Part shown: positions 29,691 through 51,100 of the stretch, piece after piece
How the letters are laid out: every line of letters starts with the position of its first letter
Numbering within the stretch: position 1 is the first letter of the stretch
Source of the DNA: Bacteroidia bacterium
GTDB taxonomy: Bacteria; Bacteroidota; Bacteroidia; B-17B0; Aurantibacillaceae
Direction of reading: 5' to 3'
NCBI GenBank assembly: GCA_025455485.1
Contig: JALOMJ010000010.1
Location: forward strand, 1-64,000
Length of the DNA stretch: 64,000 nt
Translations under genes and position numbers: made by a program
The notes under the pieces: generated by a model
What the model saw: the letters and a program-made list of their open reading frames with translations, nothing else
What the model was told of the DNA's origin: nothing
Database searches by the model: none

Positions 29691-29894
29691 TAAAAAATAG
29701 CTATCGCTATTACTAATATGTCATTGTCTCTTCAACAAATATACCCAAAATTCAGGCTTTGGTTTTTCAGCGCCGAAAAACTTTTTTCACATAGCACATT
29801 GTAAATCAAGTTTCTAAAAGGGGTTGTACAACCCCCTGCAACCCTTGTTTTTTGGCGCTTTGCCTTCTATTTGTACCATAAAAAATGCAGACAA

Positions 29895-31074: not shown

Positions 31075-31133
31075 TCCCCGAGCACCTTCCTAAGTCTCAA
31101 ATCCTCCGTTAGCCCATCACGCTAGCCGACCTT

Positions 31134-31327
31134 CGAAAAATGCCTTAGCAAGTCAAGGGGCATTTTGAGCGTGGGCTTCGCGCTAAGCAAACGCAGCCTG
31201 CGTAATTCAGCAAATGTATTTAGCAGGTAATGCCGCAGGCCTTGTTTGCGGGGCAAAATGGACCGTAGAGTTGCAAGGCATTTTTCGGAAGTCTTGATTT
31301 TTGGTTCTTTTCATCAAGGAAAAGAAC
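31134..31327. ncRNA. Structured intergenic element (possible ncRNA or REP-like element)
   Basis: 13-bp perfect inverted repeat CGAAAAATGCCTT (31134-31146)/AAGGCATTTTTCG (31275-31287) and hairpin GTTCTTTT-catcaagg-AAAAGAAC (31304-31327). Confidence 0.45.
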
Positions 31328-31403
31328 ATAGAAAATATGACCTGTAGGATACCATTCACCTTTTCATTTCATCCTTCACCAAATCAAACCAAAAAAGAAT
31401 AAA

Positions 31404-32015
31404 ATGACCCATTTCAAATACGAACACGCCATCCAATGGCTCCAAAAAAGAGGACGAGAAACCATCCATCCGGAATACCGGATCCTGGACGAAGAAAAAG
31501 ACCTCCTAAAAAAGCTTTTGTGTTACTTTTTAAAGGACAAAGACACCGCTCCCTACCTTGGAATCAATTTAAACAAAGGAATCCTTCTAAACGGACCTAT
31601 TGGCTGCGGCAAAACCAGCCTCATGAAATTAATGAGGTTCTATGAACCGGCCAACAATCGTTTCATCCTAAAATCCTGCCGCGACATCAGCTTTGAATTC
31701 ATCCAGCAGGGCTACGAAGTCATTTCCAAATACAGTAACCGCAGCTTTAACAATTTCGAGCCCGTCACTTATTGTTTTGACGACCTCGGTGCTGAACGCA
31801 ACATCAAGTACTTCGGTAACGAATGCAACGTCCTGGCTGAGGTCCTTCTAAGCCGATACGATCTTTTCACCTCCCGCAAACTCATCACCCACATCACCAC
31901 CAACCTCTCAGCCACAGAAATTGAAAGTTATTATGGTAATCGCCTCAGGTCTCGCTTGCGGGAAATGTTTAATCTCATTGCGTTTCGGCATGTTTCTGGT
32001 GACAAAAGAAAGTAA
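31404..32015 (+). CDS. ATP-binding protein (DnaC/IstB-like AAA ATPase)
   Basis: GILLNGPIGCGKTSLMKLM Walker A; PVTYCFDDLGAE Walker B-like. Confidence 0.8.
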   Translation: MTHFKYEHAIQWLQKRGRETIHPEYRILDEEKDLLKKLLCYFLKDKDTAPYLGINLNKGILLNGPIGCGKTSLMKLMRFYEPANNRFILKSCRDISFEFIQQGYEVISKYSNRSFNNFEPVTYCFDDLGAERNIKYFGNECNVLAEVLLSRYDLFTSRKLITHITTNLSATEIESYYGNRLRSRLREMFNLIAFRHVSGDKRK

Positions 32016-32100
32016 GAATTTAATACACACTCAACTCAATATTGGATTATATTCGCTCCCCCTTTCAACAAATACCTATCAACCAAATATATTTTCAACA

Positions 32101-32340
32101 ATGAAACTCCTTTGTAAAATAGTTCTTGAAGAATACGGTTTTATAGAACTACCTGAAAACATCGGCCCCGATGTCATAATGGCGAAAGACAATTTTAATC
32201 TTACCCTTAAGCCGGATGGAGCATGCCATTATTTAAATCTCGGGATTAATTACCCGGTTAAAGATCTTGCTGGGCTGAAGAAATTGTACAAGGAGGTGAA
32301 AGGAATGGAACTAAGTGAAATAAAGCTTAACCTAATTTAA
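32101..32340 (+). CDS. Hypothetical small protein
   Basis: ATG at 32101 inside a longer ORF; 79 aa coherent sequence. Confidence 0.4.
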   Translation: MKLLCKIVLEEYGFIELPENIGPDVIMAKDNFNLTLKPDGACHYLNLGINYPVKDLAGLKKLYKEVKGMELSEIKLNLI

Positions 32341-32407: not shown

Positions 32408-32423
32408 TAAGTATTTATACCTA
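32408..32423. promoter_or_regulatory. 7-2-7 inverted repeat TAAGTATTTATACCTA upstream of two-component operon
   Basis: Same 16-mer as 34605-34620; near-identical at 37444-37459 and 47999-48014. Confidence 0.7.
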
Positions 32424-32517
32424 GTGCGTCTGTTAAAAAACACACATTGCATGCGCAAGTGCAGTTCAGCCATTATATTTGCTTCATTGTGCGCTGTAAT
32501 AAAACCCAATAGCAACC

Positions 32518-33144
32518 TTGTATTATCTCTTTCGCAATATCTCCATCCTTTCTGCTCTGCCTCCGCTCATTGCCCTCTTATTCGTATTTAAAACCAAAAA
32601 CCCCATCAAAATACCACTTCTGGTATTGTGCCTGTCTGCTGCTTTATCTGATGGTATTTGTTACCTGCTAGCGAAACAAGGTATTGGTTCAATAACAGTT
32701 TGGTTCATTTACACAATATTCGAAGGCCTCTCCATTTTTGCCCTGTATGCCTTGGCTATCGAAAGGAAGTCTGCCATGCGGCTTATAACACCAATTACTT
32801 TAACTTTTTTACTCATCGCAGTCCTTACGATACTCAATTCCTGGTCCAACGAATGGCTCTCTTCTTTCGAAGCACTTGCGGTGGTATTTATTAGCACCCG
32901 GTATTTTTTCTATCTACTTAAAAACCCAATGCACATCCACATCACAGGCTATTATTTCTTTTGGATCAACGCCGCCTTCTTCTACTATTTTGCAAGCAGT
33001 TTTTTATTTTTCTATTTTGAAAACACCTTACGTACTATCCCCCCTCCCCACATCCATAAGGTGTATAGCTTACATCTCTTCAATAACCTGCTTTATAACC
33101 TTACCTTAGCTTTTGGTATATGGAAACTGAAAACCAGAGCTTAA
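32518..33144 (+). CDS. Multi-spanning membrane protein (about 7 TM), putative sensor partner of the downstream kinase
   Basis: Repeated hydrophobic segments; overlaps the histidine kinase ORF by 25 bp; TTG start. Confidence 0.65.
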   Translation: MYYLFRNISILSALPPLIALLFVFKTKNPIKIPLLVLCLSAALSDGICYLLAKQGIGSITVWFIYTIFEGLSIFALYALAIERKSAMRLITPITLTFLLIAVLTILNSWSNEWLSSFEALAVVFISTRYFFYLLKNPMHIHITGYYFFWINAAFFYYFASSFLFFYFENTLRTIPPPHIHKVYSLHLFNNLLYNLTLAFGIWKLKTRA

Positions 33145-33938
33145 CTATCCTTCTTGCAGGTGCTTCCGCATCATTGGTGCTTGCACTATTGATTATCATT
33201 TTTGTCGTTGTTTATCAAAACAAATTGTACGCGTTAAATCTGTTCACCAAAAAGCTACAGGAAAATCAACAGAAACAACTCTTTCAAGCCGTAAGCCAGG
33301 CTGAAAACCAGGAAAGAGAACGTGTTGCTGCCAATTTACACGACGACACAGGTATGAATTTATCATTACTGAAACAAAACATACTCCGTCAGCAAACCCA
33401 GCTTCCTCCTGAAACGGCCGCACAAATTCAACAACAAAATATTCAACTCATTGATAAAACAGTGGCCGATCTATCCAATAATATTTTCGAATTAAGCCCG
33501 CGTTACCTTCTAAAACATGGTTTATCAAAATCCATTCAAAACGATCTTGGTCTGCTTCGTGAGGGATTGGCAATTCAATCCACATTCAGCGCCACGTTAT
33601 CAGAAGGACATGAACACTATTTTGAATCCCAGGCTTTAATTAATATCTATCGCCTTTGGAAAGAATTATTGAACAATCTGGTTAAACACAGCAAGTCTAC
33701 CAACATGGATGTAAGTCTGCTCTACTCAAAAACAAAATTACAACTCAACATACGGCACAACGGCATACAACTCGATAACCAAATGGTTGGTAAACTTAAA
33801 GAAGAATCCAAGGGCTTTGGCTTAAAATCAATCGAAGCCCGGCTTTATATACTTAATGCCGTTATAAACTATTCTTCCGCTCAACACAAGGCATTAATTG
33901 AACTTCATATTCCCTTCAAATATGTCCCAAACAATTAA
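33120..33938 (+). CDS. Sensor histidine kinase (NarL/HisKA_3 type)
   Basis: N-terminal TM; ERERVAANLHDDTGMNLSLLKQN (HisKA_3); NLVKHSKSTNMDV and GFGLKSIEARLYIL (HATPase). Confidence 0.9.
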   Translation: METENQSLTILLAGASASLVLALLIIIFVVVYQNKLYALNLFTKKLQENQQKQLFQAVSQAENQERERVAANLHDDTGMNLSLLKQNILRQQTQLPPETAAQIQQQNIQLIDKTVADLSNNIFELSPRYLLKHGLSKSIQNDLGLLREGLAIQSTFSATLSEGHEHYFESQALINIYRLWKELLNNLVKHSKSTNMDVSLLYSKTKLQLNIRHNGIQLDNQMVGKLKEESKGFGLKSIEARLYILNAVINYSSAQHKALIELHIPFKYVPNN

Positions 33939-34575
33939 AATCGGTATCGCCGAAGATCACCTTTTGTTCCGTCAGGGATTTATGGCTTTGCTTAAACCCA
34001 TTAATAACCTGCAAGTTATTTTTGATGTGTCCAACGGTGTAGAACTACTTCTGGCACTTGAAAATGAACAACCCGATATTATTTTTCTTGATATTGAAAT
34101 GCCTGAAATGGGAGGCGAAGAGGCACTATTGCATCTCAAAATACAATATCCACACATTAAAATTGTTATGCTAAGTATGTACTTTCAGCCGGCCTACAAA
34201 ACAGAATACCTCAGCAATGGTGCTCACGCTTTTCTTGAAAAAACCGCGCACATCAATAAGATACTCGAAACCATTTACACGCTTTGCCCCGATAAACAAA
34301 ACATAATATCTGGCTCCGGGCATGGCGCAATTGATGGTGCCTCAACAAGTCCGGTATTCTCCCCACCAATCCTACCAATTAAAAAACAATTGTCCCCAAG
34401 GGAAATAGAGATTATAAAATTAATTTGTGCAGGCCATTCCAGTAAAGAAATTGCCGTTAAAATGGAGCTCAGTAAAAGAACTGTAGACAGCCACCGCTTT
34501 TCAATACTCAAAAAAACCGGTATCAAAAAAAACATAGCGCTTTGTGCTTTTGCACGCAAACACAAGCTTCTTTAA
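33922..34575 (+). CDS. Response regulator, NarL/FixJ family (REC + LuxR-type HTH)
   Basis: KIGIAEDHLLFRQGFMALL; DIIFLDIEMPEMGGEEAL; LSPREIEIIKLICAGHSSKEIAVKMELSKRTVDSHRFSILKKTG. Confidence 0.95.
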   Translation: MSQTIKIGIAEDHLLFRQGFMALLKPINNLQVIFDVSNGVELLLALENEQPDIIFLDIEMPEMGGEEALLHLKIQYPHIKIVMLSMYFQPAYKTEYLSNGAHAFLEKTAHINKILETIYTLCPDKQNIISGSGHGAIDGASTSPVFSPPILPIKKQLSPREIEIIKLICAGHSSKEIAVKMELSKRTVDSHRFSILKKTGIKKNIALCAFARKHKLL

Positions 34576-34604
34576 GCTAGTCTGTTCATTTCTAAGGTAA
34601 TGAA

Positions 34605-34620
34605 TAAGTATTTATACCTA
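34605..34620. promoter_or_regulatory. 7-2-7 inverted repeat TAAGTATTTATACCTA
   Basis: Perfect copy of the 32408 site; 91 bp between site and ATG. Confidence 0.7.
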
Positions 34621-34711
34621 TGTTCTTTAATGTGTGAAGGTGCTCTTTGAATGAGCGAAAGAATGGCATCTTCTTTCAATTACAATTAACTTAGATTTAA
34701 ACTTCTATGTT

Positions 34712-37270
34712 ATGAAACTTCGTGTTTTTTATTCATTTGCAAGTCTTATACTTTTCATAAGCTTTAACTTAACTCTTCCTGCCCAATCCCCTACCTGGCA
34801 ATGGACCAAACGTTGTGGCTCCTCAGGTGACAATATTCCAAGCATAAGTGGTAACGAGTCATTTAACGATGTTAAGATTGACAAGAATGGGAACATCTAT
34901 GCGGTGGGGAACTTTTTCGCTAATACGGTTTTTCATAATGCACAACTCTTCGGTGCAGCCACACCCTTTCAATTTGCGAAAGACGATGCTTATCTTATCA
35001 AGTACAGTTCATGTGGTCAACTGCTGTGGTGGAGGAGGATGGGAGGCACCAATAACGATGGGGCTACATCGCTTGCATTAGATAGTCAGGGAAAAGTGAT
35101 CGTAACAGGATATTGCACAAGTAATCCTTCCTATTATTCTGGTGGAGCAAATTCCACTACAATAAGTGGGGCACAAGCAAACGGATCTCAATTTATCGCA
35201 AAGTTTGATACTTCTGGAAATTTTCTTGCTGTGAACACCTACTCACTTGGTTTAATGAAACTTTTTTTGAACAGCCAGGGGAACTGCTTAGTTACAGATG
35301 GTTATTTCGCCGCGAACATTAATACGCTTGGCGTTGTTTCTTCTACTATAGCTTTTTTTACCCCAACCACAAGTCCATCCTATCCAGGTATAAATGGAAT
35401 TGTCCTTGATAAAAACGACAACATATTTCTTTGTGGTGGTTTTCTGGATACCGTTGTCATTAACGCAAGTACCATACTTTTACCCACGGCATCTACCTTA
35501 TTCCCAAGTCAATTTGCAACCAACTCACTCATAATGAAATTGAATAGCAATGGTGTACTCCAATGGTATCAGCGAGGGTACACACAGGCAATTGACGTCC
35601 TTGCTAAATGTGCTTTGGATACTTCTGGATCAAATATTTTAACAAGCGGAAGGGTTTGGAGCAATCAGGTAGTATTCGGATATACAATCAATACTGGTGG
35701 AATAGGCTCATTTGCAAATCCAATCTACTTATTGGATGCTTCAACTGGTACTCTCATATCTGGCATTACTGGTAGCGCCAATTTGCAACCTATAGTGGAT
35801 GTTTATGCAAATGATAGAGACAACAACTTTTACATCTCAGGTAATACAAATGGGTTCTTTACCTTGGGCAACACAACTCTTACTGTAGCAGGTGCTGCTT
35901 CCAACCGCCAGAACCTACTTGGTAAATTGGATGCTAACGGCAACTTTGTAAGTATGTCACTAATGCCCCAAATGGGCACCCAAGGAGCAAATGAAAAAGT
36001 ATATAGTGTCGCCATCAGTGAACAAGGCAATGTTATCCTCTGCGGCCAGTTTGCAGGTACCCTTGATAGTTTGGGTACAGCAGTTACCCCAATATCAGGT
36101 GAAGATGGTTACATCAATAAATTCGGTTTCCCCTGCGGCAGCACACTCACTACCCTGAGCCCCCTGGCTCCAACAAGCCTAACAGCTGCTTACCAGGGCA
36201 GCTTAAACAATTTAGTCACCTGGGTAGATAACAGCAACTACGAAACAAGCTACGAACTTTGGTACCACGATGCTTCTCCAACCTTCAGCCTCCTCACTAC
36301 CTTGGCCGCAAATACTACAACGTACAACCACACAGGCCTGAGTTACACCACCACCTATTGTTACAAAACAAGAGCCATCAACAACATTGGCCCTAGTGCC
36401 TTTACCAATTCCGATTGTGCCAGTACACCGGCCCCTGCAGCGCCACAAGCCCCTACAAACCTAACTGCGCTCAATACTGGTTCCTTAATAAACAATGTTG
36501 CCTGGGTGGATAACAGTTTCAATGAAACCTCATTTGAACTCTGGTACCACGGCACCAATCCAACATTTAGTTTGCTGGCCACCTTACCCGCAAACACAAC
36601 AACCTATACGCATATGGGCTTAAACCCTTCAACAAACTACTGCTACAAAGCATTAGCAACAAACTCTATTGGCCCAAGCGCATTTACCAATACCGATTGC
36701 GCACTCACACCAGCTTTGCCAAATGCTCCAACAAATCTTTTTGCCACGAATACCGGCACCTTGGTAAACAACCTCAGCTGGGTAGATAATAGCAGTGATG
36801 AAACCAACTTCGAACTTTGGTTCCATGATGCTTCACCTACTTTTAGTTTGCTTATAACCCTTCCTGCAAATACCACTACCTACACCCACACAGGTCTAAC
36901 TCATACAACCACCTACTGCTATAAAGCCTTAGCCACAAACTCCATCGGCCCAAGCGCCTTTACCAACACCGATTGTGCCACCACTCCTGATACCTCAACC
37001 GTTGGTCTGAATGAATTTGCTTTTGCCAGAAACTTTAATTTGTATCCCAACCCAAGCAAGGGCACAGTGTATCTTTCCTTCAACGGCAATGGTGAAACCT
37101 TACATCTAAAAATTACGGACCCTTTAGGTCGTTTAGTTAAAGAAGAAGACATAACCACAAACTCGGGTGAAAATGAAATTAAGATTGCCTTGCCCTCAAC
37201 AAAAGGGCTATACTTCATACAATTGAGCAACAGTAGTTCAACGCTGAACACTAAAGTGTTGCTCGAATAA
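34712..37270 (+). CDS. T9SS type A sorting-domain protein with three FN3-like domains (paralogue A1)
   Basis: Signal peptide MKLRVFYSFASLILFISFNLTLPAQ; FN3-like repeats; C-terminal FNLYPNPSKGTVYLSFNGNGETLHLKITDPLGRLVKEE...GLYFIQL. Confidence 0.88.
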   Translation: MKLRVFYSFASLILFISFNLTLPAQSPTWQWTKRCGSSGDNIPSISGNESFNDVKIDKNGNIYAVGNFFANTVFHNAQLFGAATPFQFAKDDAYLIKYSSCGQLLWWRRMGGTNNDGATSLALDSQGKVIVTGYCTSNPSYYSGGANSTTISGAQANGSQFIAKFDTSGNFLAVNTYSLGLMKLFLNSQGNCLVTDGYFAANINTLGVVSSTIAFFTPTTSPSYPGINGIVLDKNDNIFLCGGFLDTVVINASTILLPTASTLFPSQFATNSLIMKLNSNGVLQWYQRGYTQAIDVLAKCALDTSGSNILTSGRVWSNQVVFGYTINTGGIGSFANPIYLLDASTGTLISGITGSANLQPIVDVYANDRDNNFYISGNTNGFFTLGNTTLTVAGAASNRQNLLGKLDANGNFVSMSLMPQMGTQGANEKVYSVAISEQGNVILCGQFAGTLDSLGTAVTPISGEDGYINKFGFPCGSTLTTLSPLAPTSLTAAYQGSLNNLVTWVDNSNYETSYELWYHDASPTFSLLTTLAANTTTYNHTGLSYTTTYCYKTRAINNIGPSAFTNSDCASTPAPAAPQAPTNLTALNTGSLINNVAWVDNSFNETSFELWYHGTNPTFSLLATLPANTTTYTHMGLNPSTNYCYKALATNSIGPSAFTNTDCALTPALPNAPTNLFATNTGTLVNNLSWVDNSSDETNFELWFHDASPTFSLLITLPANTTTYTHTGLTHTTTYCYKALATNSIGPSAFTNTDCATTPDTSTVGLNEFAFARNFNLYPNPSKGTVYLSFNGNGETLHLKITDPLGRLVKEEDITTNSGENEIKIALPSTKGLYFIQLSNSSSTLNTKVLLE

Positions 37271-37296
37271 AATATTTTGATTGGTTAGTTCGAAAG

Positions 37297-37323
37297 ACCC
37301 GTTTCAATTGGCGGGTTTTTTGT
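37297..37323 (+). terminator. Rho-independent terminator
   Basis: acccgtttcaattggcgggttttttg. Confidence 0.75.
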
Positions 37324-37443
37324 TGTCAAAAACCAACGGCAACACACACAGCAAAAACGACCTATAAATATGCCTTAATGTGTACCCGGGTGGTACTTTG
37401 TTTGTGAAATTCGTAATCCTAACGACTCATAACAGAAGCAATA

Positions 37444-37459
37444 TAGGTATTTATACTTA
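37444..37459. promoter_or_regulatory. 7-2-7 inverted repeat TAGGTATTTATACTTA
   Basis: 91 bp between site and ATG of 37551, the same spacing as at 34605/34712. Confidence 0.7.
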
Positions 37460-37550
37460 TTGCATTGGCTTAGTAAACCACTCCTTTGAATGAGTAAATG
37501 AATATGTCTTTCAGGGTATTACGGTTAAATTTGATATAAACTCCTGAGTT

Positions 37551-40500
37551 ATGAAACTTCGTGTTTTTTATTCATTTGCGAGTCTTATTCTATTCATAAG
37601 TCTTGGACTTCCTGCAAATAACTCGAATTTGGCATGGTCTATTCCTTTTTGCAATAGTAATGACAAAGCAGGGCAAATGAGTGTGAATGAAGCTATGCTT
37701 AATGAAAATCTTAAGGAATTCATATCACCAAAAAATACAACTCGCGCTACGTTTACTCAGAACAATAAATTGGTATGGGATTCTAAAGGAAATTACCATT
37801 CGGAAGTGCGTTACTATATGGATGATATAAATTTTCAGCTCTTTTTATTAGAAACAGGACTAGCTTATCAGTTTACAAACATCTATGAAAATGAAAAGGA
37901 CTGCAAAAACCTAAAATCTGGCGCCTCAAATATTAATCGGACCGAAACATTTAGAATAGATATAGAACTTATTGGTGCTAATCCCAATCCTATCGTGTCT
38001 CATGCAAATGCAGTTCCGGAAAATGACAAATTTGCGTTGCCTTATCATAAGGATATCAACAGCTACCGAAAGGTTACATACCATGAAATTTATCCTGGAA
38101 TAGATTGGGTGATTTATACGAAGGATGAACAAGTTAAATACGACTTTATTGTAAAGCCTGGAGCAGACCCATCGTTAATCAGAATACGATACAATTATCA
38201 AAATTCGCTTATAATAGATAGTGATGGTAGTTTATTGATTCGAAGTCAACTTGGTGATATTAGAGAAAATCCACCTGTTAGCTATCAGAATGAACTAACT
38301 GTTAAAACCAGATTTATTTTGAAGAATGACATCTTAACCTATGAGATTGGGTCATACGACAAGTCCAAAAATCTGGTGATAGATCCTGCTCTATTGTGGT
38401 CTACTTATTATGGTGGAACTGGGTATGATAGGGCTATGAGCTGTGCTTCAGATGTTGCTGGAAATGTTTATTTGGCAGGATTTACAAGTTCAACTATCAA
38501 TATTGCATCGGGCGGATACCAAAATTCATATAACTCCGGTACTTATGATGCGTATTTGGTTAAGTTTAATAGCGCAGGAGTCCGGCTTTGGGCAAGCTAC
38601 CTTGGTGGCAATGGCGATGATCGTGCTTACGGTTGTGCGACTGATATTTTTGGTAACGTTTATATATCAGGATACACAACTTCAACGGCAAATATTGCAT
38701 TTAATGGATTTCAAAATGCGGCAACTGGTTTAGGAAATAATTTTCTGTCCAAATTTAACACAAATGGTACCCTCCTTTGGTCAACTTATTATGGTGGATA
38801 TTATTATGGCGGAGGTATTCCAGATCCTTTAGCGAAATGCGCTACAGACAAATCAGGCAACGTTTACCTTTCTGGTACAACGTTTTACACCGTTGGGATA
38901 GCATCAGGCGGCCACCAAAATACATATAGCTTGAATGGAGATGCCTACCTGGTAAAATTTAATCCAAATGGCTCCAGGATTTGGGCAACCTACTATGGTG
39001 GCAATTCTACGGATTTAGGCCTGGGTGTCGCAACAGACAATTCCCGCAATGTATACATCACAGGCTCTACTGGCTCCGGTAACAATATTTATGCTGCAGG
39101 ATTTCAGAGTATTTACGGTGGTGGTTCATATGACTCATTTTTGGTAAAATTTGATAGTGCCGGTGTTCGGCAGTGGGGTACATATTATGGAGGTACTGGT
39201 ACCGATGGGGCATACGGTTGCACTACCGACCAAAGTGGAAATGTATATATATGTGGTGTAACAAATTCATACTCGAACATTGCTTCTGGTGGCTTTCAAA
39301 ATACCAACATAGGTAATGCTGCAAATTCAGAGGCATTTCTCGTAAAGTTTAATTCAAGCGGTGCAAGACTTTGGGGTACTTATTATGGGGGAACCTCTGT
39401 TGAAATTGCGCACAGTTGCGCGACTGACAGTTTAGGCAATATCTACATGACAGGTGTCGCGGGTTCGGGAGGCCTTGCATACAACGGCTTGCCGCCTTAC
39501 GTTGGCGGTGGCGGTTGTTTTTTGGTGAAGTTTTTCCCCGATGGTTCCAGGCATTGGGGTAGTTATTTTGGCGGCCCAGGCGGCGGGGAGGCTTATGAGT
39601 GTACAACAGGGAAATATGGCAATGTATATATATGCGGAGCAACAACTTCAACTAATCAGATTGCCTACAATGGTCATCAAAACACCAACGGCACAAACAC
39701 AGATGGCTTCCTGCTTAAGATTTGTGATTGGATACCGATATCAGCTATTTCAGGCAACACCCTGCATTGTGTGGGATCCCCTGCCTCATTTTCAATCCCT
39801 CCTGTTCCAGGTGCTGCAAGTTATTCATGGTCATTAGCTCCAGGCTGGACCAGTACTTCCACTGTTACGAACACTCTTTCTGCAATTCCGGGCTTAACAG
39901 GGCTAATCAAAGTTTCTGCTCAAAATGGTTGTCCCGGCTCAGGATACGCACAAACATTAAGTGTTACAGTGTATCCCACCCCAACTATCGTGGCAAGCAG
40001 TGGAACAATCTGCGCTGGTTCTTCTATAACTTTGACGGCGAATGGTGCCAACACCTATTCTATTACAGGCAATTCATTTGCAGTAAGCCCTTCTTCTACG
40101 ACCTCATATACAATTATTGGTACTAGCGCAATGGGGTGTCAATCAACAATTGGAGCAGTGGCCACAGTTACAGTATTCCCTAATCCAACTATCCAGGTAG
40201 TTGCCTCTAATAACGGTACTGTTTGTAGTGGAGGTACAGTTACATTTATACCTACAGGTGCACAAACATATACAATTAGTGGTGGGACTTTCACTGTCAC
40301 ACCTAACAATACAAGTATTTACACAGTAACTGGCACCTCCGGCAATGGCTGTGTATCTCAAGCTTCATCAACAGTTGCGGTAACAGTTTTTAGCCTTCCA
40401 ATAATTCAAATCACTTCAACGGCTGACACCATCTGCGCGGGAAGCGAAGTTACACTTACTGCAACCGGTGCAAGTTCATTTTCTTGGTCTAATGGTTCAC

Positions 40501-40868
40501 AATTGACGACAAACCCGGTAATACCGCTTGTTTCAACCATATATACGGTAACAGGAATAAGTTCCGATGGCTGTTTCGGTTCAGCGCTCTTTAAACAGCA
40601 TGTAATACTTTGCACAAATTTATACTCCATTATCGATCAAGGTGCATTACTGAAGGTGTATCCAAATCCCACCGAAGGAATGATCTTTGTTGAGTCTCAA
40701 TTTGGGCAAGAGGTTCGGATTCTAAGCATAGATGGTCGTTTGCTTGAAAAGCAAATATTGCAACCTGGGAAAAACAGCCTCAATTTGATGACTTATCAGG
40801 CAGGTATTTATTATTTATTATTTGAAAATGGGCAAAATAAGCAACGAATTGAATTAATTAAATTATGA
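37551..40868 (+). CDS. SBBP-repeat beta-propeller protein with Ig-like domains and T9SS type A sorting domain
   Basis: Repeated WSTYYGGTGYDRAMSCASDVAGNVYLAGFT blades; Ig-like CAGSSITLTANGANTYS; LLKVYPNPTEGMIFVES...GIYYLLFENG. Confidence 0.88.
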   Translation: MKLRVFYSFASLILFISLGLPANNSNLAWSIPFCNSNDKAGQMSVNEAMLNENLKEFISPKNTTRATFTQNNKLVWDSKGNYHSEVRYYMDDINFQLFLLETGLAYQFTNIYENEKDCKNLKSGASNINRTETFRIDIELIGANPNPIVSHANAVPENDKFALPYHKDINSYRKVTYHEIYPGIDWVIYTKDEQVKYDFIVKPGADPSLIRIRYNYQNSLIIDSDGSLLIRSQLGDIRENPPVSYQNELTVKTRFILKNDILTYEIGSYDKSKNLVIDPALLWSTYYGGTGYDRAMSCASDVAGNVYLAGFTSSTINIASGGYQNSYNSGTYDAYLVKFNSAGVRLWASYLGGNGDDRAYGCATDIFGNVYISGYTTSTANIAFNGFQNAATGLGNNFLSKFNTNGTLLWSTYYGGYYYGGGIPDPLAKCATDKSGNVYLSGTTFYTVGIASGGHQNTYSLNGDAYLVKFNPNGSRIWATYYGGNSTDLGLGVATDNSRNVYITGSTGSGNNIYAAGFQSIYGGGSYDSFLVKFDSAGVRQWGTYYGGTGTDGAYGCTTDQSGNVYICGVTNSYSNIASGGFQNTNIGNAANSEAFLVKFNSSGARLWGTYYGGTSVEIAHSCATDSLGNIYMTGVAGSGGLAYNGLPPYVGGGGCFLVKFFPDGSRHWGSYFGGPGGGEAYECTTGKYGNVYICGATTSTNQIAYNGHQNTNGTNTDGFLLKICDWIPISAISGNTLHCVGSPASFSIPPVPGAASYSWSLAPGWTSTSTVTNTLSAIPGLTGLIKVSAQNGCPGSGYAQTLSVTVYPTPTIVASSGTICAGSSITLTANGANTYSITGNSFAVSPSSTTSYTIIGTSAMGCQSTIGAVATVTVFPNPTIQVVASNNGTVCSGGTVTFIPTGAQTYTISGGTFTVTPNNTSIYTVTGTSGNGCVSQASSTVAVTVFSLPIIQITSTADTICAGSEVTLTATGASSFSWSNGSQLTTNPVIPLVSTIYTVTGISSDGCFGSALFKQHVILCTNLYSIIDQGALLKVYPNPTEGMIFVESQFGQEVRILSIDGRLLEKQILQPGKNSLNLMTYQAGIYYLLFENGQNKQRIELIKL

Positions 40869-40888
40869 TTGATTGACTCACCTATAGA

Positions 40889-43456
40889 ATGTTTACTGCT
40901 ATGAATGCTTACAGAATGAATCAACTAAAATATCTTTTACGGGTTGTTTACACCATTTGTTTTTTTGGTGTTTTGACGCTTATTGGTTATTCTCAGTCAT
41001 GGCAATGGACCAAACGTTGTGGCAGCACCAGCGGTGGAAACGAATCGTTTAATGACATCAAACTCGACAAAAATGGGAACATTTATGCAGTGGGTAATTT
41101 TTTTGCTAATACAGTTTTCCATAATGCACAACTCTTCGGCGCTGCTACACCTTATCAATTCGCCCAAGATGATGCTTACCTGATAAAATACAGCTCCTGT
41201 GGCGAGCTTTTGTGGTGGAGAAGGATGGGAGGCGCCAACTATGATGGAGCTAATTCGCTTTTGCTGGACAATCAGGGGAAAGTAATAGTACTCGGGTATT
41301 GCACGAGCAATCCAAGCTATTATTCCGGTGGCGCAAATTCCACAACAATAAGCGGTGCACAAGCCAACGGTGCTCAGTTTATTGCAAAGTTCGATACTTC
41401 TGGAAATTTTCTGTCCGTGAACACTTACTCTTTATACCATACCAGAATTTTCTTAACTAATCAAGGTAATTATTTAACCACCGATGGCTTTTTCGCTGCC
41501 ACCATCAATACCCTGGGTGCTGTTACCTCCACGATGGCTTTTTTTCCTGCAGCTACCCCTGGTTATTATCCCGCAATAAATGATATAAAATTCGATAAGA
41601 ATGATAACATATATCTGTGTGGGGCAATTGTGGATACTACTGTGATAAATGCAAATACAGTTTTACTGCCGGTGCTATCAACACTTATACCCGGTTTTGC
41701 CGGCAATTCCCTGCTTATTAAATTAAATAGCGCTGGCGTTCTACAGTGGTATCAAAGAAGTTATAGCAATATTGCTGATGCCTTTGCTAAATGCTCCTTG
41801 GACACTTCTGGCACAAAGATCATGACAAGCGGCAGGGCCTGGAATGGCTCTGTACTTTTCGGGAACACCTATAATACTTGGGTAGGAACATGGGCCAACT
41901 CTTTTTACATTTTTAATACTCAAACTGGCTCCTTCATATCTTCAACTACAGGTACTGCCAACGGGCAGCCAATTGTTGATGTTTATGGAACCGACAGGGA
42001 CAACAATTTCTGGATTTCAGGTAATACAAACGGTTGGTTTACCCTGGGGAATATAACTGCTACCGTTGCTGGTGTGCCCGCCAATCGCCAGAACCTACTC
42101 GGTAAATTGGATGCTAATGGCAACTTTATAGGTATGTCACTGATGCCACAGATGGGCACCCAGGGAGCAAATGAAAGGATTCACGGCCTGGCCATTAGTG
42201 AACAAGGTAATGTTATACTCTGCGGCCGGTTTGCAGGCACCCTGGATAGTTTAGGCACTGCGGTTAATCCAATTGCAGGTGTGGATGGTTTTGTCAATAA
42301 ATTCGGCTTACCTTGTGGTAGCACGGTTTCCGCTCTTAGTTTGCTACCACCAACGAATTTAAATGCCTTATATCAAGGTACTCTAACAAACATAGTCAAT
42401 TGGGTAGACAACAGTAATTTCGAAACAGCTTATGAGTTGTGGTCAAATGGGCCCACACCAACCTTTAGTTTATTGAGCATCTTACCTGCCAACACAACTA
42501 CGTTTACTCACGTCGGCCTGAGTTACAGCACCACTTATTGCTATAAAGCGAGAGCAGTTAATACTGTAGGCCCAAGTAATTTTACAAACGTAGACTGTGC
42601 TATTACTCCCCCCTTAACTACGCCGCAGCCGCCCAGTGGTTTAACTGCAGTTAATACTGGAAGTCTATTCAATAATGTGTCATGGATTGATAATAGTTTT
42701 AATGAAACAGGCTTTGAATTGTGGTACCATGACGCATCACCAACATTTAGTCTATTAGCCACTTTACCTCCCTATTCAACAACTTATCTTCACAGTGGGC
42801 TAAATTACCTTACCACATATTGTTACAAAGCAGTTGCAATAAATTCAGCAGGGCCAAGTGTGTTTACGAATACAGATTGTGCTACCACACCCCAAATTCT
42901 GCCCCCTAATCCTCCATCCACCCTGGCTGCTGTATACAGCGGTTCACTCACAAACAATGTTGTATGGTTGGATAACAGCAATAATGAAACCAGCTTCGAA
43001 TTGTGGTATCATGGTTCTAATCCCACCTTTAGTTTATTAATAACTCTGCCTGCAAATACAACATCCTACAATCATAGCGGATTAAACCAAACTACTACGT
43101 ATTGTTATAAAGCCAATGCTATTAATTCAGGCGGCGCAAGCCCTTTTACCAATAGCGATTGCGCCACCACACCGGATACAAGTACAGTTGGTCTGAACGA
43201 ACTTGCCTTTGCCAAAAACTTTAAGTTATACCCCAACCCAAGCAAAGGCACGGTGTACCTTACGTTCAGCGGCAATGGTGAAAACCTGCATTTAAAAATT
43301 ACAGACCCCTTAGGCCGTTTAGTGAAAGAAGAGGAGATCAACACAAGCGCCGGTGAAAATGAAATTAAGATCACTTTGCCTGCTACAAAAGGCCTCTATT
43401 TCATTCAACTCAGCAACAACACTTCAACACTCAATACAAAAGTGTTGTTGGAATAA
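40889..43456 (+). CDS. T9SS type A sorting-domain protein with FN3-like domains (paralogue A2)
   Basis: Near full-length similarity to 34712..37270 by eye; different N-terminal signal segment. Confidence 0.88.
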   Translation: MFTAMNAYRMNQLKYLLRVVYTICFFGVLTLIGYSQSWQWTKRCGSTSGGNESFNDIKLDKNGNIYAVGNFFANTVFHNAQLFGAATPYQFAQDDAYLIKYSSCGELLWWRRMGGANYDGANSLLLDNQGKVIVLGYCTSNPSYYSGGANSTTISGAQANGAQFIAKFDTSGNFLSVNTYSLYHTRIFLTNQGNYLTTDGFFAATINTLGAVTSTMAFFPAATPGYYPAINDIKFDKNDNIYLCGAIVDTTVINANTVLLPVLSTLIPGFAGNSLLIKLNSAGVLQWYQRSYSNIADAFAKCSLDTSGTKIMTSGRAWNGSVLFGNTYNTWVGTWANSFYIFNTQTGSFISSTTGTANGQPIVDVYGTDRDNNFWISGNTNGWFTLGNITATVAGVPANRQNLLGKLDANGNFIGMSLMPQMGTQGANERIHGLAISEQGNVILCGRFAGTLDSLGTAVNPIAGVDGFVNKFGLPCGSTVSALSLLPPTNLNALYQGTLTNIVNWVDNSNFETAYELWSNGPTPTFSLLSILPANTTTFTHVGLSYSTTYCYKARAVNTVGPSNFTNVDCAITPPLTTPQPPSGLTAVNTGSLFNNVSWIDNSFNETGFELWYHDASPTFSLLATLPPYSTTYLHSGLNYLTTYCYKAVAINSAGPSVFTNTDCATTPQILPPNPPSTLAAVYSGSLTNNVVWLDNSNNETSFELWYHGSNPTFSLLITLPANTTSYNHSGLNQTTTYCYKANAINSGGASPFTNSDCATTPDTSTVGLNELAFAKNFKLYPNPSKGTVYLTFSGNGENLHLKITDPLGRLVKEEEINTSAGENEIKITLPATKGLYFIQLSNNTSTLNTKVLLE

Positions 43457-43538
43457 CAAATATTGTTCTTTGTAAGGAAGTTTATGAATTCCCTGTGCGC
43501 TGGCTAGTCACGGCGCTGAGCCGGCGAGGGAGTGAATT

Positions 43539-43776
43539 GATTTTCAGAAAGAAAGTCGGCAAAGGCCGAGCCTATAGGCGAAGGTTTAATTTCTGCGCTT
43601 ATCGATACACTCACAAGGCGCAGAAATTTGACTTTGCCTGACTTTCAAGGAAAATCAAGAGTGGGTGGAAAGATCGCCGTGCCTTGTCCCCGCCCGAACG
43701 ACCATTCATAATTTTATATGTCTCGTGTTGTTCTGTCGGGCGGGTTTTGGTTACTTTTCGACTAAGGAAAAGTAAC
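43539..43776. ncRNA. Highly structured intergenic element (possible ncRNA/REP-like element)
   Basis: Nested pairings GATTTTC 43539-43545/43150-type partner at 43650-43656, GAAAGTC 43551-43557/43640-43646, GGCAAA 43558-43563/43633-43638, ATTTCTGCGC 43589-43598/43618-43627; CCCGCCCGA 43689-43697/43736-43744; hairpin GTTACTTTT...AAAAGTAAC 43750-43776. Confidence 0.55.
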
Positions 43777-43809
43777 AAAAATAACTGGAAGAAATTTTAA
43801 TACTTGAAT

Positions 43810-46362
43810 ATGATATCTGTGTTTATAAAGTTCTACAAATTCTTAACATATATGTTGATTCTAATCAACTTCTTAGGCATCGCCCAATCCCCCACCTGGC
43901 AGTGGGCCAAGAGATGTGGTTCCACTGGCGACAATATTCCAAGTATAAGTGGTAACGAGTCATTTAATGACATCAAAATTGATAAGAATGGCAACATCTA
44001 TGCTGTAGGGAATTTTTATGCAAATACAGTATTTCATAACGCGCAGCTCTTTGGTGCAGCTACACCTTTTCAATTTGCCAAAGACGATGCTTATCTTATT
44101 AAGTACAGTTCATGTGGACAACTACTGTGGTGGAGGAGGATGGGAGGCACCAATAACGATGGCGCTACGTCACTTGTGCTGGATAACCAGGGAAAAGTAA
44201 TTGTAACAGGCTATTGCACCAGTAACCCTTCTTATTATTCTGGTGGCGCAAATTCCACCACAATAAGTGGAGCTCAAGCCAACGGTGCTCAATTTATTGC
44301 AAAGTTTGATACTTCAGGTAATTTTCTCTCCGTGAATACATACTCACTTTTGCTTATGAAGATGCTACTCAACAGCCAAGGTGATCTTTTTCTAACTAAT
44401 GGTAATTTTGCCGCAACAATTAATTCGCTCGGTGTCGTTACTTCCACTTTGGCTTTTTTTACTCCAACGACTCCTTCATACCCAGCGATAAACGATATTA
44501 AATTGGATAGAAGCGATAATATTTATCTTTGTGGTGCATTAATGGATACTGTCTCCATAAACGGAGGCAATGTTTTACTTCCCGTCACATCTACTATCTT
44601 ACCAGGCTTTGCTGGCAATTCCCTAATAATGAAACTAAATAGCAGTGGCGTGCTTCAATGGTACCAGCGCAGTTACAGCAATGGCTTAGATGGTCTATCA
44701 AAGTGTGCATTGGATACATCAGAAACGAAAATAGTAACAAGTGGCAGGAACCTATTTTATTCAGTCATTTTTGGCTACACAATAAATACGGGTGTTGGCA
44801 CCTATGCCAACCCTATATATATGTTAAACACGTCAAATGGCAGCCTCATTACTGGAATAACAGGTTCTGCCAACCTACAGCCAATTGTTGATGTATATGC
44901 TTCCGATCGGGATAACAATTTTTATTTATCAGGGAATACTAACGGTTGGTTTGCGTTAGGCAACACAACCCTTACTGCAGTAGGTGGAGGTCCAAATCGC
45001 CAGAATTTACTGGGAAAGCTTAACTCTACCGGTAGTTTTTTGAGCATGGCCCTTATGCCTCAAATAGGTAGCTCCGGTGCAAATGAAAAAGTTTACGGCC
45101 TCGCTATCAGCGAACAAGGTAATGTGATCCTATGCGGCCAGTTTGCAGGCACCCTTGATAGTTTGGGTACTGCCGTTACTCCAATATCTGGTGTGGATGG
45201 CTATGTCAACAAATTTGGCTTCCCCTGCGGCAGCACTTTAACTGCGCTCAGCCCATTAGCCCCAACTAGTCTAACCGCTGCTTATCAGGGCAACTTAAGC
45301 AACCTGGTTACCTGGGTTGATAACAGCAATTTCGAAAACGGTTTTGAGCTTTGGTACCACGATGCCTCCCCAACTTTTAGTCTTCTGGCCACCCTGCCGG
45401 CCAATACCACTACATACACTCACACGGGGTTGAGTTACACCACAACCTATTGTTATAAAACAAGAGCCATTAACGGCATTGGCCCAAGTGCTTTTACTAA
45501 TTCCGATTGCGCTGCCACACCAGCTCCAGCTGCGCCACAAGCTCCTACCAACCTTACTGCACTTAATACAGGTTCTCTAATAAACAATGTAGCCTGGGTA
45601 GATAACAGCTTTAATGAAACTTCCTTTGAGCTTTGGTACCACGGCGCCAACCCAAGCTTTAGTTTATTGGCCACCTTAGCCGCCAATACAACAACCTATA
45701 CGCATACCGGCCTCAGCCCCGGCACTAATTATTGTTACAAGGCCTTGGCAACAAACAGCATTGGCTCAAGTGTATTTACCAATACCGATTGTGCCCTTAC
45801 ACCTGCATTGCCCAATGCGCCCTCTAACCTGGTTGCAGCAAATACAGGCAACCTTTTCAATAACGTAAACTGGGTAGATAACAGTAGCGATGAAACCAAC
45901 TTTGAGTTGTGGTACCACGATGCCTCGCCAACTTTCAGTCTGTTGGTTACCTTAGCCGCCAACACCACAACATACACGCATACGGGTTTAACTCATACAA
46001 CCACTTACTGCTACAAGGCTTTAGCAACAAACAGCGTAGGCCCCAGTGCTTTTACCAATAGCGATTGTGCCACTACACCAGATACAAGTACAGTTGGCTT
46101 AAATGAATTTGCTTTTGCAAAAAACATTAAGTTATACCCCAACCCAAGCAAAGGCACGGTGTACCTTTCCTTCATGGGCAATGCTGAAACCCTGCATTTA
46201 AAGATCACAGACCCCTTAGGGCGCTTATTGAAAGAAGAGGAGATCAACACAAGCACCGGTGAAAATGAAATCAAGATTACTTTGCCTCCAACAAAAGGAC
46301 TTTACTTCATACAGCTCAGCAACAACACTTCAACTCTTAGCGCAAAAGTGTTGCTCGAATAA
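43810..46362 (+). CDS. T9SS type A sorting-domain protein with FN3-like domains (paralogue A3)
   Basis: Near full-length similarity to 34712..37270; third distinct signal peptide MISVFIKFYKFLTYMLILINFLGIAQS. Confidence 0.88.
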   Translation: MISVFIKFYKFLTYMLILINFLGIAQSPTWQWAKRCGSTGDNIPSISGNESFNDIKIDKNGNIYAVGNFYANTVFHNAQLFGAATPFQFAKDDAYLIKYSSCGQLLWWRRMGGTNNDGATSLVLDNQGKVIVTGYCTSNPSYYSGGANSTTISGAQANGAQFIAKFDTSGNFLSVNTYSLLLMKMLLNSQGDLFLTNGNFAATINSLGVVTSTLAFFTPTTPSYPAINDIKLDRSDNIYLCGALMDTVSINGGNVLLPVTSTILPGFAGNSLIMKLNSSGVLQWYQRSYSNGLDGLSKCALDTSETKIVTSGRNLFYSVIFGYTINTGVGTYANPIYMLNTSNGSLITGITGSANLQPIVDVYASDRDNNFYLSGNTNGWFALGNTTLTAVGGGPNRQNLLGKLNSTGSFLSMALMPQIGSSGANEKVYGLAISEQGNVILCGQFAGTLDSLGTAVTPISGVDGYVNKFGFPCGSTLTALSPLAPTSLTAAYQGNLSNLVTWVDNSNFENGFELWYHDASPTFSLLATLPANTTTYTHTGLSYTTTYCYKTRAINGIGPSAFTNSDCAATPAPAAPQAPTNLTALNTGSLINNVAWVDNSFNETSFELWYHGANPSFSLLATLAANTTTYTHTGLSPGTNYCYKALATNSIGSSVFTNTDCALTPALPNAPSNLVAANTGNLFNNVNWVDNSSDETNFELWYHDASPTFSLLVTLAANTTTYTHTGLTHTTTYCYKALATNSVGPSAFTNSDCATTPDTSTVGLNEFAFAKNIKLYPNPSKGTVYLSFMGNAETLHLKITDPLGRLLKEEEINTSTGENEIKITLPPTKGLYFIQLSNNTSTLSAKVLLE

Positions 46363-46388
46363 ATTTTTTTGTGTGTGCGATTAGTTCG

Positions 46389-46418
46389 AAAAACCCGCTA
46401 TTTTAGTGGGGTTTTTTG
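46389..46418 (+). terminator. Rho-independent terminator
   Basis: aaaacccgctattttagtggggttttttg; shares the ttagttcgaaa lead-in with the A1 terminator. Confidence 0.75.
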
Positions 46419-46476
46419 TGAACTGTCAGGTCTTAAATCAAAATTCAATTCTCAATTTCGTAAATCGTTAACGTAT

Positions 46477-47940
46477 ATGAATGTACATTTTAGGCAGATA
46501 CTTCTCTTTCTTCTTCAGTTTTTTTCTTTTTCAACTTTCAGCCAGAAACAAGTCCTGGGCGACAGCCTGGTTCCGGCAGGTTCAATAAAACCCTATACTG
46601 TAAACGCGAGTCTCGCAAATTTAGAATGGAAAATAATTCCTGAGACAGCAGGCATCATCCTTTCCCAAAATCAAAATTCTGTTTCTATATCCTGGTCATA
46701 TCACTCCTCTGCTGCTCCTATGCTCTGTAGCCTGGCTGTTTTTATCACCTATCCCAACGCTGATAATAGCTACAATTATTTTTTGCCAATCAAAGTGCAG
46801 CCTTTTATCCCCGACACCAACTTCAACTCCAGAAGATCGAAATTTTCAAGAACTTCAAAAGACAGTCTCCGGTTTTGGTACCGGCATCTTTGCGATACAG
46901 CTCGCTTTGCAAGCATGATTCAATTAAAGGATTCCTCTTTGGCTAAGACACAAAATTATACTTGGCATTGGCATTTCCGGGATATGGAAAATAAAAAGGA
47001 AATTACAGCCCAGGGGCAAACCATAAACATACGACTCAAACCCGGTAAATACTTACTCACTTTATCAAACGATAAAAATCAACGGGTCTCAGATACACTA
47101 ACAATACTCGCGCCACCAATACCTGAGCTCAATGTCTCTACACAAACACCCTGCTCGGGCACAGGTTTCTACTTTAAAACCAGCATTTCAAACACAATGA
47201 ACTGTTCCTATTTACAACTCGATTGTGGTGATGGGCGATACAGCATGGTACCTGCTACAACCGAAAAGTTGTACCAAACGTATGCCCCCTCGCAGGACAT
47301 CATGAATATTTTTATAGCAAACCTATCTGCGATTGACCGCTACGGATGTGCCTATAGCAGCAACACCCTGGCCATTGCGCCTCAAAGAAATCAGTTTACT
47401 GTTTTTAATACCTTAATTGAACCCATGAACCCCATGCTCAATAAACCGGGTGATAAAATAGAGTTAAAATGCAAAACAGGAAATGGCTTTCAAATTGGTA
47501 ATCCGAATACTCCTTTTACTTATTTATGGAATACCGGTCAAACTAGCCCTGCCATAAACGTATCCAACCCGGGTAGCTACAGCCTTTTGGTGTGGGACAA
47601 ACTCGGCTGCAAATCTCAGGAAATTGGTCCGGTGTATGTTAAGCAAAACTTCAAAACTCCGGGCGCTCCAATAGTTTCAGGACCTAAAGAAATTAAAGCC
47701 CGTGAAAAAGCAGAATTCAAAATTACCCCGCTCAAATCCGGATTTTATCAGTTTAAGTTTATCTTCAACGATAATCAATCTTTTGTAACCGAGCCTTCAA
47801 CATCGCCCTCAACAAGCCTTCCCGATTGGGAAAAATCTCAAGCAGGCAACTTAAAAGTCATTGGTATTCATCTCAAGGCTGTTAATGGGTATCATTCTAG
47901 CTTCTTCTCCGACACCCTCAGTGTACAAATCACAGAGTAA
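46477..47940 (+). CDS. Exported hypothetical protein (Ig/PKD-like surface protein)
   Basis: Signal peptide MNVHFRQILLFLLQFFSFSTFSQ; Ig-like pattern TYLWNTGQTSPAINVSNPGSYSLLVWDKLGC; no visible T9SS C-terminal domain. Confidence 0.6.
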   Translation: MNVHFRQILLFLLQFFSFSTFSQKQVLGDSLVPAGSIKPYTVNASLANLEWKIIPETAGIILSQNQNSVSISWSYHSSAAPMLCSLAVFITYPNADNSYNYFLPIKVQPFIPDTNFNSRRSKFSRTSKDSLRFWYRHLCDTARFASMIQLKDSSLAKTQNYTWHWHFRDMENKKEITAQGQTINIRLKPGKYLLTLSNDKNQRVSDTLTILAPPIPELNVSTQTPCSGTGFYFKTSISNTMNCSYLQLDCGDGRYSMVPATTEKLYQTYAPSQDIMNIFIANLSAIDRYGCAYSSNTLAIAPQRNQFTVFNTLIEPMNPMLNKPGDKIELKCKTGNGFQIGNPNTPFTYLWNTGQTSPAINVSNPGSYSLLVWDKLGCKSQEIGPVYVKQNFKTPGAPIVSGPKEIKAREKAEFKITPLKSGFYQFKFIFNDNQSFVTEPSTSPSTSLPDWEKSQAGNLKVIGIHLKAVNGYHSSFFSDTLSVQITE

Positions 47941-47998
47941 TTTCCTATCGCTTCTCTCTTTACCTATCTCACAGAGACAATTTTACGCAGATGTAATT

Positions 47999-48014
47999 TG
48001 AGTATATATACCTA
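47999..48014. promoter_or_regulatory. 7-2-7 inverted repeat TGAGTATATATACCTA
   Basis: Fourth copy of the motif, upstream of the type IIG R-M gene. Confidence 0.55.
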
Positions 48015-48159: not shown

Positions 48160-51100
48160 ATGACCCTCAAACCCCTTACCCCAAAACTCTCCCTTAACAA
48201 GTCCTTCCTTAAGGTCAAACCGGTAAGGCCATTAATCGATGCCTTTAAATCCAACCTCATTCAGCTCCTCGATAGAACCAACGACTCCGAAAGCGAAGAG
48301 TTCCACAAAAACCTGGTCATCGACTTCCTCAAAAAAACCTATTACGATCCCGCTCACTTTATCAATACCAAAGGCCGTAACGACCTGGTCATTCATACCG
48401 GAAACTCCGCCAAAACCCCTGTTGCTGTAATTCTCGAAGCCAAAAAACCCACCAACAAGGCCGAGATGCTCAGCACCAAGAACCTAAACACCAAAGCATT
48501 TCAAGAACTGGTCCTCTATTACCTCAGAGAACGCATCACCCACAAAAACCTTGAAGTAAAACACCTGGTGGCCACTAACATCAACGAATGGTTCATTTTT
48601 GATGCCACTTTGTTCGACAGACTCTTTGCACAAAACAAAACCCTGGTAAAACAATTTACCGATTTCGAAGAAGGCCGCCTCGCCGAATCCAAAACCGATT
48701 TTTTCTACAAAGAAATTGCAGAACCCTTTGTGGCTTCAATCAATTCTGAAATAGAATTCACCTACTTCAACATTCAGGATTACCAAACCCCTCTTCGCAA
48801 CAACGATAAAAAGGACGACCACACCCTCATTGCCTTGTTCAAACTTCTCTCTCCTGAGCACCTTTTAAAACTGCCCTTCACCAACGACAGCAACAGCCTC
48901 GACAAACGTTTTTACAGCGAGCTCCTGCACATCATTGGCCTAACCGAAACCAAAGAAGGCAGCAAAAAACTCATTGGTCGCAATAAAGAAGGCGAAAGGT
49001 ACACCGGCACCCTTTTGGAGGATACCATTATTCAGCTCGACAGTCTGGATAAATTAAGCCGACTCTCCAACCCAAGTCAATATGGCGCCAACCCCCAGGA
49101 ACGTTTATTTACGGTCGCGCTTGAACTTTCCATTACCTGGATCAACCGCATCCTTTTCCTCAAATTGCTCGAAGCTCAGCTCATCACCTATCACAAAGGC
49201 GATAAATCCTATTCCTTCCTGAATTCCAATAAAATTAAAAATTACGACGACCTCAACAGCCTCTTCTTTCAGGTCCTTGCCCGCAAGTTCAATGACAGAA
49301 ATCCCGACGTAAAACAGGCCTTCGAAAAAGTCCCTTACTTGAACAGCTCCCTTTTCGAACCCACCGACCTCGAGCAGTTAACCCTTTTCATCAGCAATCT
49401 AAAGGACGATAAAACCATCCCCGTTCTTTCTTCAACTGTACTTAAGGACAACCAGGGCAAAAAACTCAGCGGCAGCCTTACTTCACTCAAGTATTTGTTT
49501 GAGTTTCTAAATGCCTACGATTTCAGCAGCGAAGGCTCAGAAGAAATTCAGGAAGACAACAAAACCCTTATCAATGCCTCGGTTCTTGGTTTAATATTTG
49601 AGAAAATCAACGGCTACAAGGACGGCTCCTTTTTTACTCCCGGCTTTATCACCATGTACATGTGCCGCGAAACCATTCGCAGGGCAGTGCTTCAAAAATT
49701 CAACGAAACCAAAAAATGGAACTGTTCCACCTTCGAAGAACTTTACGATAAAATCGAGGACCGTAAAGAGGCCAATAACATTGTCAACTCATTAAAGATT
49801 TGCGACCCCGCTGTGGGCTCCGGCCACTTTTTGGTTTCGGCCCTCAATGAGATGATTGCCATTAAAAACGACCTGAAGATCCTTTCAGATAGAGAAGGTA
49901 AACGTTTAAAAGAATACCACGTTGAGGTTGTAAACGATGAATTAATTGTTACCGACGAAGAAGGAGAACTCTTTGAATACACACCCGGTATTTCCCCCCT
50001 CAAGGGGGGATTAAAGGGGGGTGAAAGCCAACGCATTCAGGAAACCCTCTTCCACGAAAAACAAACCATCATCGAAAACTGTTTGTTTGGAGTTGATATT
50101 AATACCAACTCCGTAAAGATTTGCCGTTTACGCCTTTGGATTGAACTACTCAAAAATGCATATTATGTGGCTCCCTCTAGTTCCGATAAAGCGGGGGGTG
50201 AGGCACTGGAAACCCTCCCCAACATCGACATCAACATCAAATGCGGCAATTCCCTGGTAAGCCGTTTTGCAATAGATGCCGACCTCAAACAAGCCCTTAA
50301 AAAAAGCAAATGGACCATTGACAGTTACAAGCTGGCAGTGGATACCTACCGCAACGCCGATAGCAAAGAGCAAAAGCGTGAAATGGAGAAGTTGATTGCC
50401 GACATCAAATCCGATTTTAAAACCAATATTGACAACCCGTTTAAAAGGAAAATTAGTTCTGCTCGTGGAAAAGTTGATAAGATCGCGACAGAAATAAACA
50501 CTCAAAAGCAGTGGGGCGAGAAATTAAATAAGCAATTATTAAAGGATTTAGAGAAAGCAACTCAACAATTAAAATTACTTGAAAAAGAAAGAGAGACCAT
50601 TGAGTCAAATGTAATGTTTGACAATGCATTTGAATGGCGCTTTGAATTTCCGGAAATATTGAATGATTCTGGCGAATACATAGGATTTGATGTATTGATT
50701 GGAAACCCGCCTTATGGTATTACAATAAAAGGATTGGAAAGAAATTATATTGTCTCTACTATTTCAAAAGTTCCAGATTTTGAAATTTATTATTTATTTA
50801 TAGAAAGGGGTTATCAATTATTAAAGAAAAAAGGTCATTTATCATTAATTATTCCTAATACTATTCTTTTTAATGTATTTGCACAGAATTATCGTTTGGA
50901 GCTTTTCAACAAGTGGGAATTGAACGAAATATTAGACTGTACTGATATAAATATTTTCGATGATGCAACGGTAAGAAATATAATATTTCAATTTACCAAA
51001 GACAACAATCAAAACAGTTTGTATTACAAGAGAACGAATGATGTTAAAACATTTGAAGAGTTGATGGAGAGGCCTGTAGTCTCCATTCCTAAAGAAATTG

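Follow-up and report, generated by a model that had tools for sequence, protein, structure and literature searches.

NarL and other response regulators of the NarL/FixJ (LuxR) type combine a receiver with a GerE domain, can recognize 16-bp inverted repeats with a 2-bp centre, and are served by cognate kinases of the HisKA_3 type. In Pseudomonas, the Gac/Rsm pathway, a two-component system with a NarL-family regulator, governs many unlinked defence elements, including PARIS and a Kiwa-type system (PMC11888443). Co-regulation of unlinked defence systems is largely open, and this best worked case that we found is post-transcriptional (PMC11888443). Here we describe a 64,000-nucleotide stretch of a Bacteroidia bacterium (assembly GCA_025455485.1, contig JALOMJ010000010.1, positions 1–64,000; the window), in which a 16-bp palindrome of two heptamers around a 2-bp centre (7-2-7) precedes four units. 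As in the NarL systems, a receiver–GerE regulator, a 16-bp inverted repeat, and a HisKA_3-type kinase occur together. Comparison with related genomes suggests that this palindrome is probably the private operator of the resident LuxR-type regulator encoded at 33922–34575 (regulator 33922) and that the four units form a predicted local regulon.

Site 1 (32408–32423) and site 2 (34605–34620), both TAAGTATTTATACCTA, site 3 (37444–37459), TAGGTATTTATACTTA, and site 4 (47999–48014), TGAGTATATATACCTA, all read on the + strand, lie upstream of the seven-transmembrane (7TM)/kinase/regulator operon, an FN3 gene and an SBBP gene whose products carry type IX secretion system (T9SS) sorting tails, and a type IIG restriction gene, respectively. 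A sequence-only reading of this DNA had listed four such sites 94, 91, 91, and 145 bp upstream of the respective starts, and we found all four at those positions and distances (measured from site end to start codon). Its consensus, TARGTATWTATACYTA, fits sites 1–3 exactly but deviates from site 4 by one mismatch; TRRGTATWWATACYYA is the pattern common to all four. The sites are genuine, and chance falls far short of explaining them. With at most two mismatches, the window contains eight strand-matches at four places, compared to a mean of 0.34 and a maximum of 4 in shuffled sequence, and base composition predicts 0.005 sites with at most one mismatch in 15.6 kb. For genome-wide statistics, the 3.05-Mb genome (82% complete) was searched with a reversed-pattern control. 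At no more than one mismatch, this search returned only the four window sites and C102:46507 (handles of this kind are our own), and the control returned none; exact TRRGTATWWATACYYA occurred four times, always inside the window; and three exact consensus sites were found where base composition predicts 0.025 per genome. In the scan that the sequence-only reading had called for, the motif was thus rare and not scattered at random. A looser pattern, TRRGTAWWWWTACYYA with one mismatch, matched 25 places versus 16 in its control and was not informative, and no operator was found before the T9SS gene at 43804. Elsewhere in the same genome, a 600-bp gap near a contig end (G000:C102:46460-46522; L117, 13461-13523) holds three tandem operator-like palindromes, TAGGTAGAACTACCTG, AGAGTAAAATTACCTA, and TAGGTATAATTACCTA, with periods of 22 and 25 bp, which may represent a further target.

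Homologues of regulator 33922 in the same genus are 38–44% identical to it, and many are encoded in operons with the order small ~104-residue protein, 7TM protein, HisKA_3-type kinase, and LuxR regulator. Searching with the small protein recovered 134 relatives in GTDB genomes, from which 80 cassette loci were kept, nearly all from Bacteroidota and most with the four-gene order. The window operon (32518–34575) encodes a 7TM protein, kinase, and LuxR regulator in the family order, with a 16-bp palindrome 94 bp upstream (site 1), and belongs to this unnamed, widespread cassette family as a member that lacks the small first gene.

Four comparisons link the palindrome to the LuxR regulator of the cassette. 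First, TARGTAWWWWTACYTA had 8–26 sites in each of seven genomes of the genus with a syntenic cassette, five in the genome of the window, and three or fewer in the others. Across 40 genomes of the genus, many sites and the cassette occurred together in 7/7 of these genomes versus 1/33 of the remainder, the one being that of the window (Fisher p = 4e-7, an optimistic value because the genomes are related). In the seven genomes, TAGGTAWWWWTACCTA-type sites were almost always intergenic and often paired ~24 bp apart; just 2 of ~66 site clusters fell within open reading frames (ORFs), compared to 9/11 stray sites elsewhere. Single sites in G008, G009, G016, G023, and G028, which have no close cassette, were all inside ORFs and were dismissed as chance matches. 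Second, 33/80 cassettes had GTAN4TAC in the interval from −250 to −120 relative to the small gene, compared to only 0–4/80 in eleven other intervals of equal length. The outer bases of these 16-bp 7-2-7 palindromes vary by lineage (TAGGTA, TCCGTA, TTAGTAC, TACGTAG, GGGGTA, TACGTAT, and others), and several of them stand in tandem at 21–24 bp. Third, when four palindromes were each sought in ten genomes, GGGGTAWWWWTACCCC had 12 sites, all within its own genome, TTAGTACNNGTACTAA had one site, and TCCGTAWWWWTACGGA and TACGTAGNNCTACGTA had a single site per genome in the two genomes with cassettes that bear them; none of the four occurred in a genome lacking the matching cassette. Finally, the regulator nearest to that of the window in the tree, from G060, goes with the same operator type, and both copies of the operator in that genome lie beside the cassette. 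These results support the assignment of each lineage-private palindrome to the LuxR regulator of its cassette, and they support the proposal of the sequence-only reading of a local regulon of the resident regulator; its surface-protein and putative defence targets also recur in relatives, as detailed below. Beyond that reading, comparison placed the operon in a widespread cassette family, pointed to a large regulon in related genomes, and revealed a promoter geometry there that indicates activation.

LuxR-type class II activators bind near position −43. In the seven-genome clade, TTG or T-rich sequence comes immediately after the operator, and TAnnnTTG lies at a fixed distance from it, with one operator-to-−7 offset accounting for 29/62 clusters and all other offsets for 0–11 (mean 3.8). 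By the published Bacteroidota promoter (−7 TAnnTTTG and −33 TTTG; PMC7366714), the clade operator is centred near −43, frequently with a second copy 23–25 bp further upstream. One promoter of the GGGGTA genome has equal spacing (L245). In the clade, the operator directly adjoins the −33 region, its distance is constant, and tandem copies lie upstream; this geometry indicates that the regulator there would be an activator. In the window, the distance between site centre and a perfect −7 element is 62 bp at site 1 and 78 bp at site 3, and with no fixed geometry the direction of control in the window is inferred from relatives. We propose that the 7TM protein and kinase would sense a cue and phosphorylate regulator 33922, a dimer of which would bind the operator and most likely activate the operon encoding it, along with the T9SS surface-protein units and the type IIG/GmrSD restriction unit.

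Several observations weigh against this proposal. About half of the 80 cassettes had no palindrome that we could find upstream, regulator 33922 is only ~39% identical to the regulators of the seven-genome clade, a search of the window for the gene of the small ~104-residue protein found none, leaving the operon an incomplete family member, and the fixed spacing of the clade was sought at the window sites without success. Moreover, with the genome 82% complete, a further regulator that uses this operator could be absent from it. The operator might then be owned by a different LuxR-type or one-component protein, encoded elsewhere or absent from the assembly, with the resident two-component system merely a target. 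The modest identity would suit this alternative, as would the C102 tandem set, which resembles the sets of the clade, yet this genome has no second close regulator homologue: there is a single homologue at E <1e-20, and a second cassette in the same genome lacks an upstream palindrome. In all lineages tested, the operator goes with the cassette, and we consider ownership by another regulator quite improbable. Repression rather than activation of these units deserves somewhat more attention but is also unlikely; with sites 91–145 bp from start codons and inconsistent spacing to the −7 element, the direction of control cannot be read in the window itself, but the abutting, tandem operators of the clade have the layout of activator sites.

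Sites 2 and 3 raise the question of whether the palindromes arose by duplication of a promoter or a small repeat and have no regulatory meaning. The genes behind these two sites share 5′ untranslated and signal-peptide sequence (50/53 identical), and the sites are not fully independent for this reason. Their operators, however, are 14/16 identical at exactly equal distance, whereas the 44 bp upstream (9/44) and the 24 bp that follow (8/24) are diverged, which looks like functional constraint on an operator kept between two T9SS promoters with otherwise unrelated flanks. BLAST comparison of the four site regions recovered the site only and, between sites 2 and 3, also an 11-bp box and the start region. 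Extended homology is absent around sites 1, 2, and 4, and the pattern recurs between genes in relatives, making duplication without function very improbable. Chance palindromes in A+T-rich intergenic DNA are a negligible alternative; the core is A+T-rich and single chance sites do occur in genomes without the cassette, but the base-composition expectation and the empty control patterns described above argue otherwise. The 11-bp box, CTTTGAATGAG, is identical at 11/11 positions at 34645–34655 and 37484–37494, 24 bp past the operator and amid diverged sequence.

The genes of the regulator operon and those behind sites 2–4 are all on the + strand. The 7TM protein (32518–33144, TTG start) is 18–29% identical to cassette 7TM proteins by alignment; its AlphaFold2 model has seven long helices (predicted local distance difference test score, pLDDT, 94), it had no Pfam match, and a fold search returned seven-helix receptors, but only weakly (best E 0.02), and we claim no kinship from them. 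The sensor histidine kinase (33120–33938) matches Pfam HATPase_c (4e-6), has a HisKA_3-like H-box, ERERVAANLHDDTG, read by eye, and matches a UhpB/MctS-like NCBIfam model below cut-off. Regulator 33922, the proposed DNA-binding protein, matches Response_reg (4e-20) and, above cut-off, GerE (1e-13), and thus has the NarL/FixJ-type combination of a receiver with a phospho-acceptor Asp and a GerE/LuxR helix-turn-helix (HTH). Its D12, D57, and T84/K107-type receiver residues are kept in the alignment, with D57 invariant.

Behind site 2 is an FN3 protein with a T9SS type A sorting tail (34712–37270; fn3 1e-10, Por_Secre_tail 1e-10). Site 3 precedes a DUF7948/SBBP beta-propeller protein with a T9SS sorting tail (37551–40868; DUF7948 4e-49, SBBP 5e-20, Por_Secre_tail 4e-8), and an FN3 T9SS gene (40889–43456), just 20 bp downstream, is judged by this spacing to be probably in the same transcription unit. 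Site 4 precedes a predicted fused restriction-methyltransferase protein of type IIG (48160–51867; Pfam DUF7149, DUF7814, Eco57I, and TaqI_C; PADLOC REase_MTase_IIG 5e-237). Three further genes (51877–55844), encoding 381, 318, and 595 residues, appear from their spacing to belong to this restriction unit; the 595-residue protein matches GmrSD_N (6e-30) and is HEC-05-like (PADLOC 1e-27), and the 381- and 318-residue proteins had no family or PADLOC match. Directly upstream of the regulator operon, 29871–32340 contains genes that look mobile-element-like by eye (HTH/excisionase-like, replication-like, and a DnaC-like ATPase), and a very long ORF of 3137 residues occupies 5531–14944 on the minus strand.

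In the seven-genome clade, operators precede the cassette itself, DUF7793/PAS-kinase and receiver operons, stress genes, Pmp3-like and lipoprotein genes, T9SS-type surface proteins, and defence genes. The defence targets comprise KwaA-KwaB of Kiwa (L050), a PARIS-like AriA/AriB pair downstream of a PAS gene (L079), PD-Lambda-5 A and B (L098), LmuA (L101), and GmrSD types HEC-05 (L103) and HEC-06 (L039); further PADLOC candidates are PDC-S60, S06, M28C, S54/S50, S33, and HEC-09, where PDC and HEC names denote candidate or recently described systems. At E <1e-45, PADLOC models matched at least 7/108 target genes versus 0/119 promoter-bearing control genes of the same genomes (p = 0.005), a rough comparison that covers 25 families for the targets and in which the gene behind one of the seven matches, CARF_2OG, was not traced. 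In the genome with the GGGGTA operator, PDC-S69 and PDC-M36A genes lie behind sites, and sites also head a series of co-directional genes in which a DUF4297-HerA pair follows 3 kb downstream. Besides the local set of the window, two operator types would therefore lead to known or candidate defence genes. By strict patterns, regulon size ranges from large sets with defence genes in some lineages to one site, at the cassette itself, in others. The window repeats the clade wiring locally, with its own operon, T9SS proteins, and a type IIG restriction operon.

The small cassette protein (e.g., L037, 7608–7922) has ~104 residues, an invariant Cys, and a CPPxC...NPLNS tail; its model is confident (pLDDT 90), and it had no fold match in the Protein Data Bank (best E 0.69) and no Pfam family. 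The only copy of its gene in the genome of the window (G000:C162:18426; L204, 10421–12832) heads the second, divergent small/7TM/kinase/LuxR cassette, which lies near a gene for a patatin-like CBASS-type phospholipase (PADLOC 4e-69). Cassettes of Pontibacter isolates L169, L170, L175, and L177 end in ~139-residue regulators that seem to be receivers without a DNA-binding domain. At L050 (G006:C16, 4686–10698), Kiwa and GmrSD-type genes bear the TAGGTA operator of one cassette in their promoter and have a different cassette of this family as their immediate neighbour, possibly reflecting cross-wiring between cassettes. A tentative idea, which falls somewhat short of being probable, is that these self-contained, Bacteroidota-wide cassettes are plug-in immune regulators. 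Each would combine a small protein, whose fold appears not to have been seen before, with a receptor-like 7TM protein, a kinase, and a LuxR regulator that has its own lineage-private operator, and would respond to one signal by turning on unlinked anti-phage systems and changing the cell surface together. As the operators are readable, regulons become predictable from sequence genome by genome, and unfamiliar genes behind operators become defence candidates. The LuxR-type operator code also becomes testable, with many natural regulator–operator pairs that differ by few bases and residues.

Neither the motif nor a comparable Bacteroidota regulator turned up in a literature search. Regulator 33922 is not closely homologous to NarL itself (below the NCBIfam cut-off), and the window differs from NarL systems in operator sequence, in having a separate 7TM protein rather than a kinase-fused sensor, and in its targets. 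PorX, a component of another Bacteroidota pathway, is not known to have a LuxR-type DNA-binding domain. That pathway, PorXY-SigP of Porphyromonas gingivalis, likewise ties two-component control to T9SS, but its reported targets are T9SS components, whereas those predicted here are T9SS-type cargo and defence genes (PMC4800418). BrxR-type WYL repressors also control a phage-restriction operon transcriptionally, but BrxR is a one-component WYL protein acting on a single system, in contrast to a sensor cassette with several predicted targets (PMC9122589). Gac/Rsm of Pseudomonas is the nearest known functional parallel but works differently, controlling defence post-transcriptionally through small RNAs and RsmA (PMC11888443). 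In the cassette family, the defence promoters themselves bear the operator, and because the targets share it in front, direct control is argued over an RsmA/small-RNA route; these findings suggest that another phylum has a family of defence regulators acting directly at promoters.

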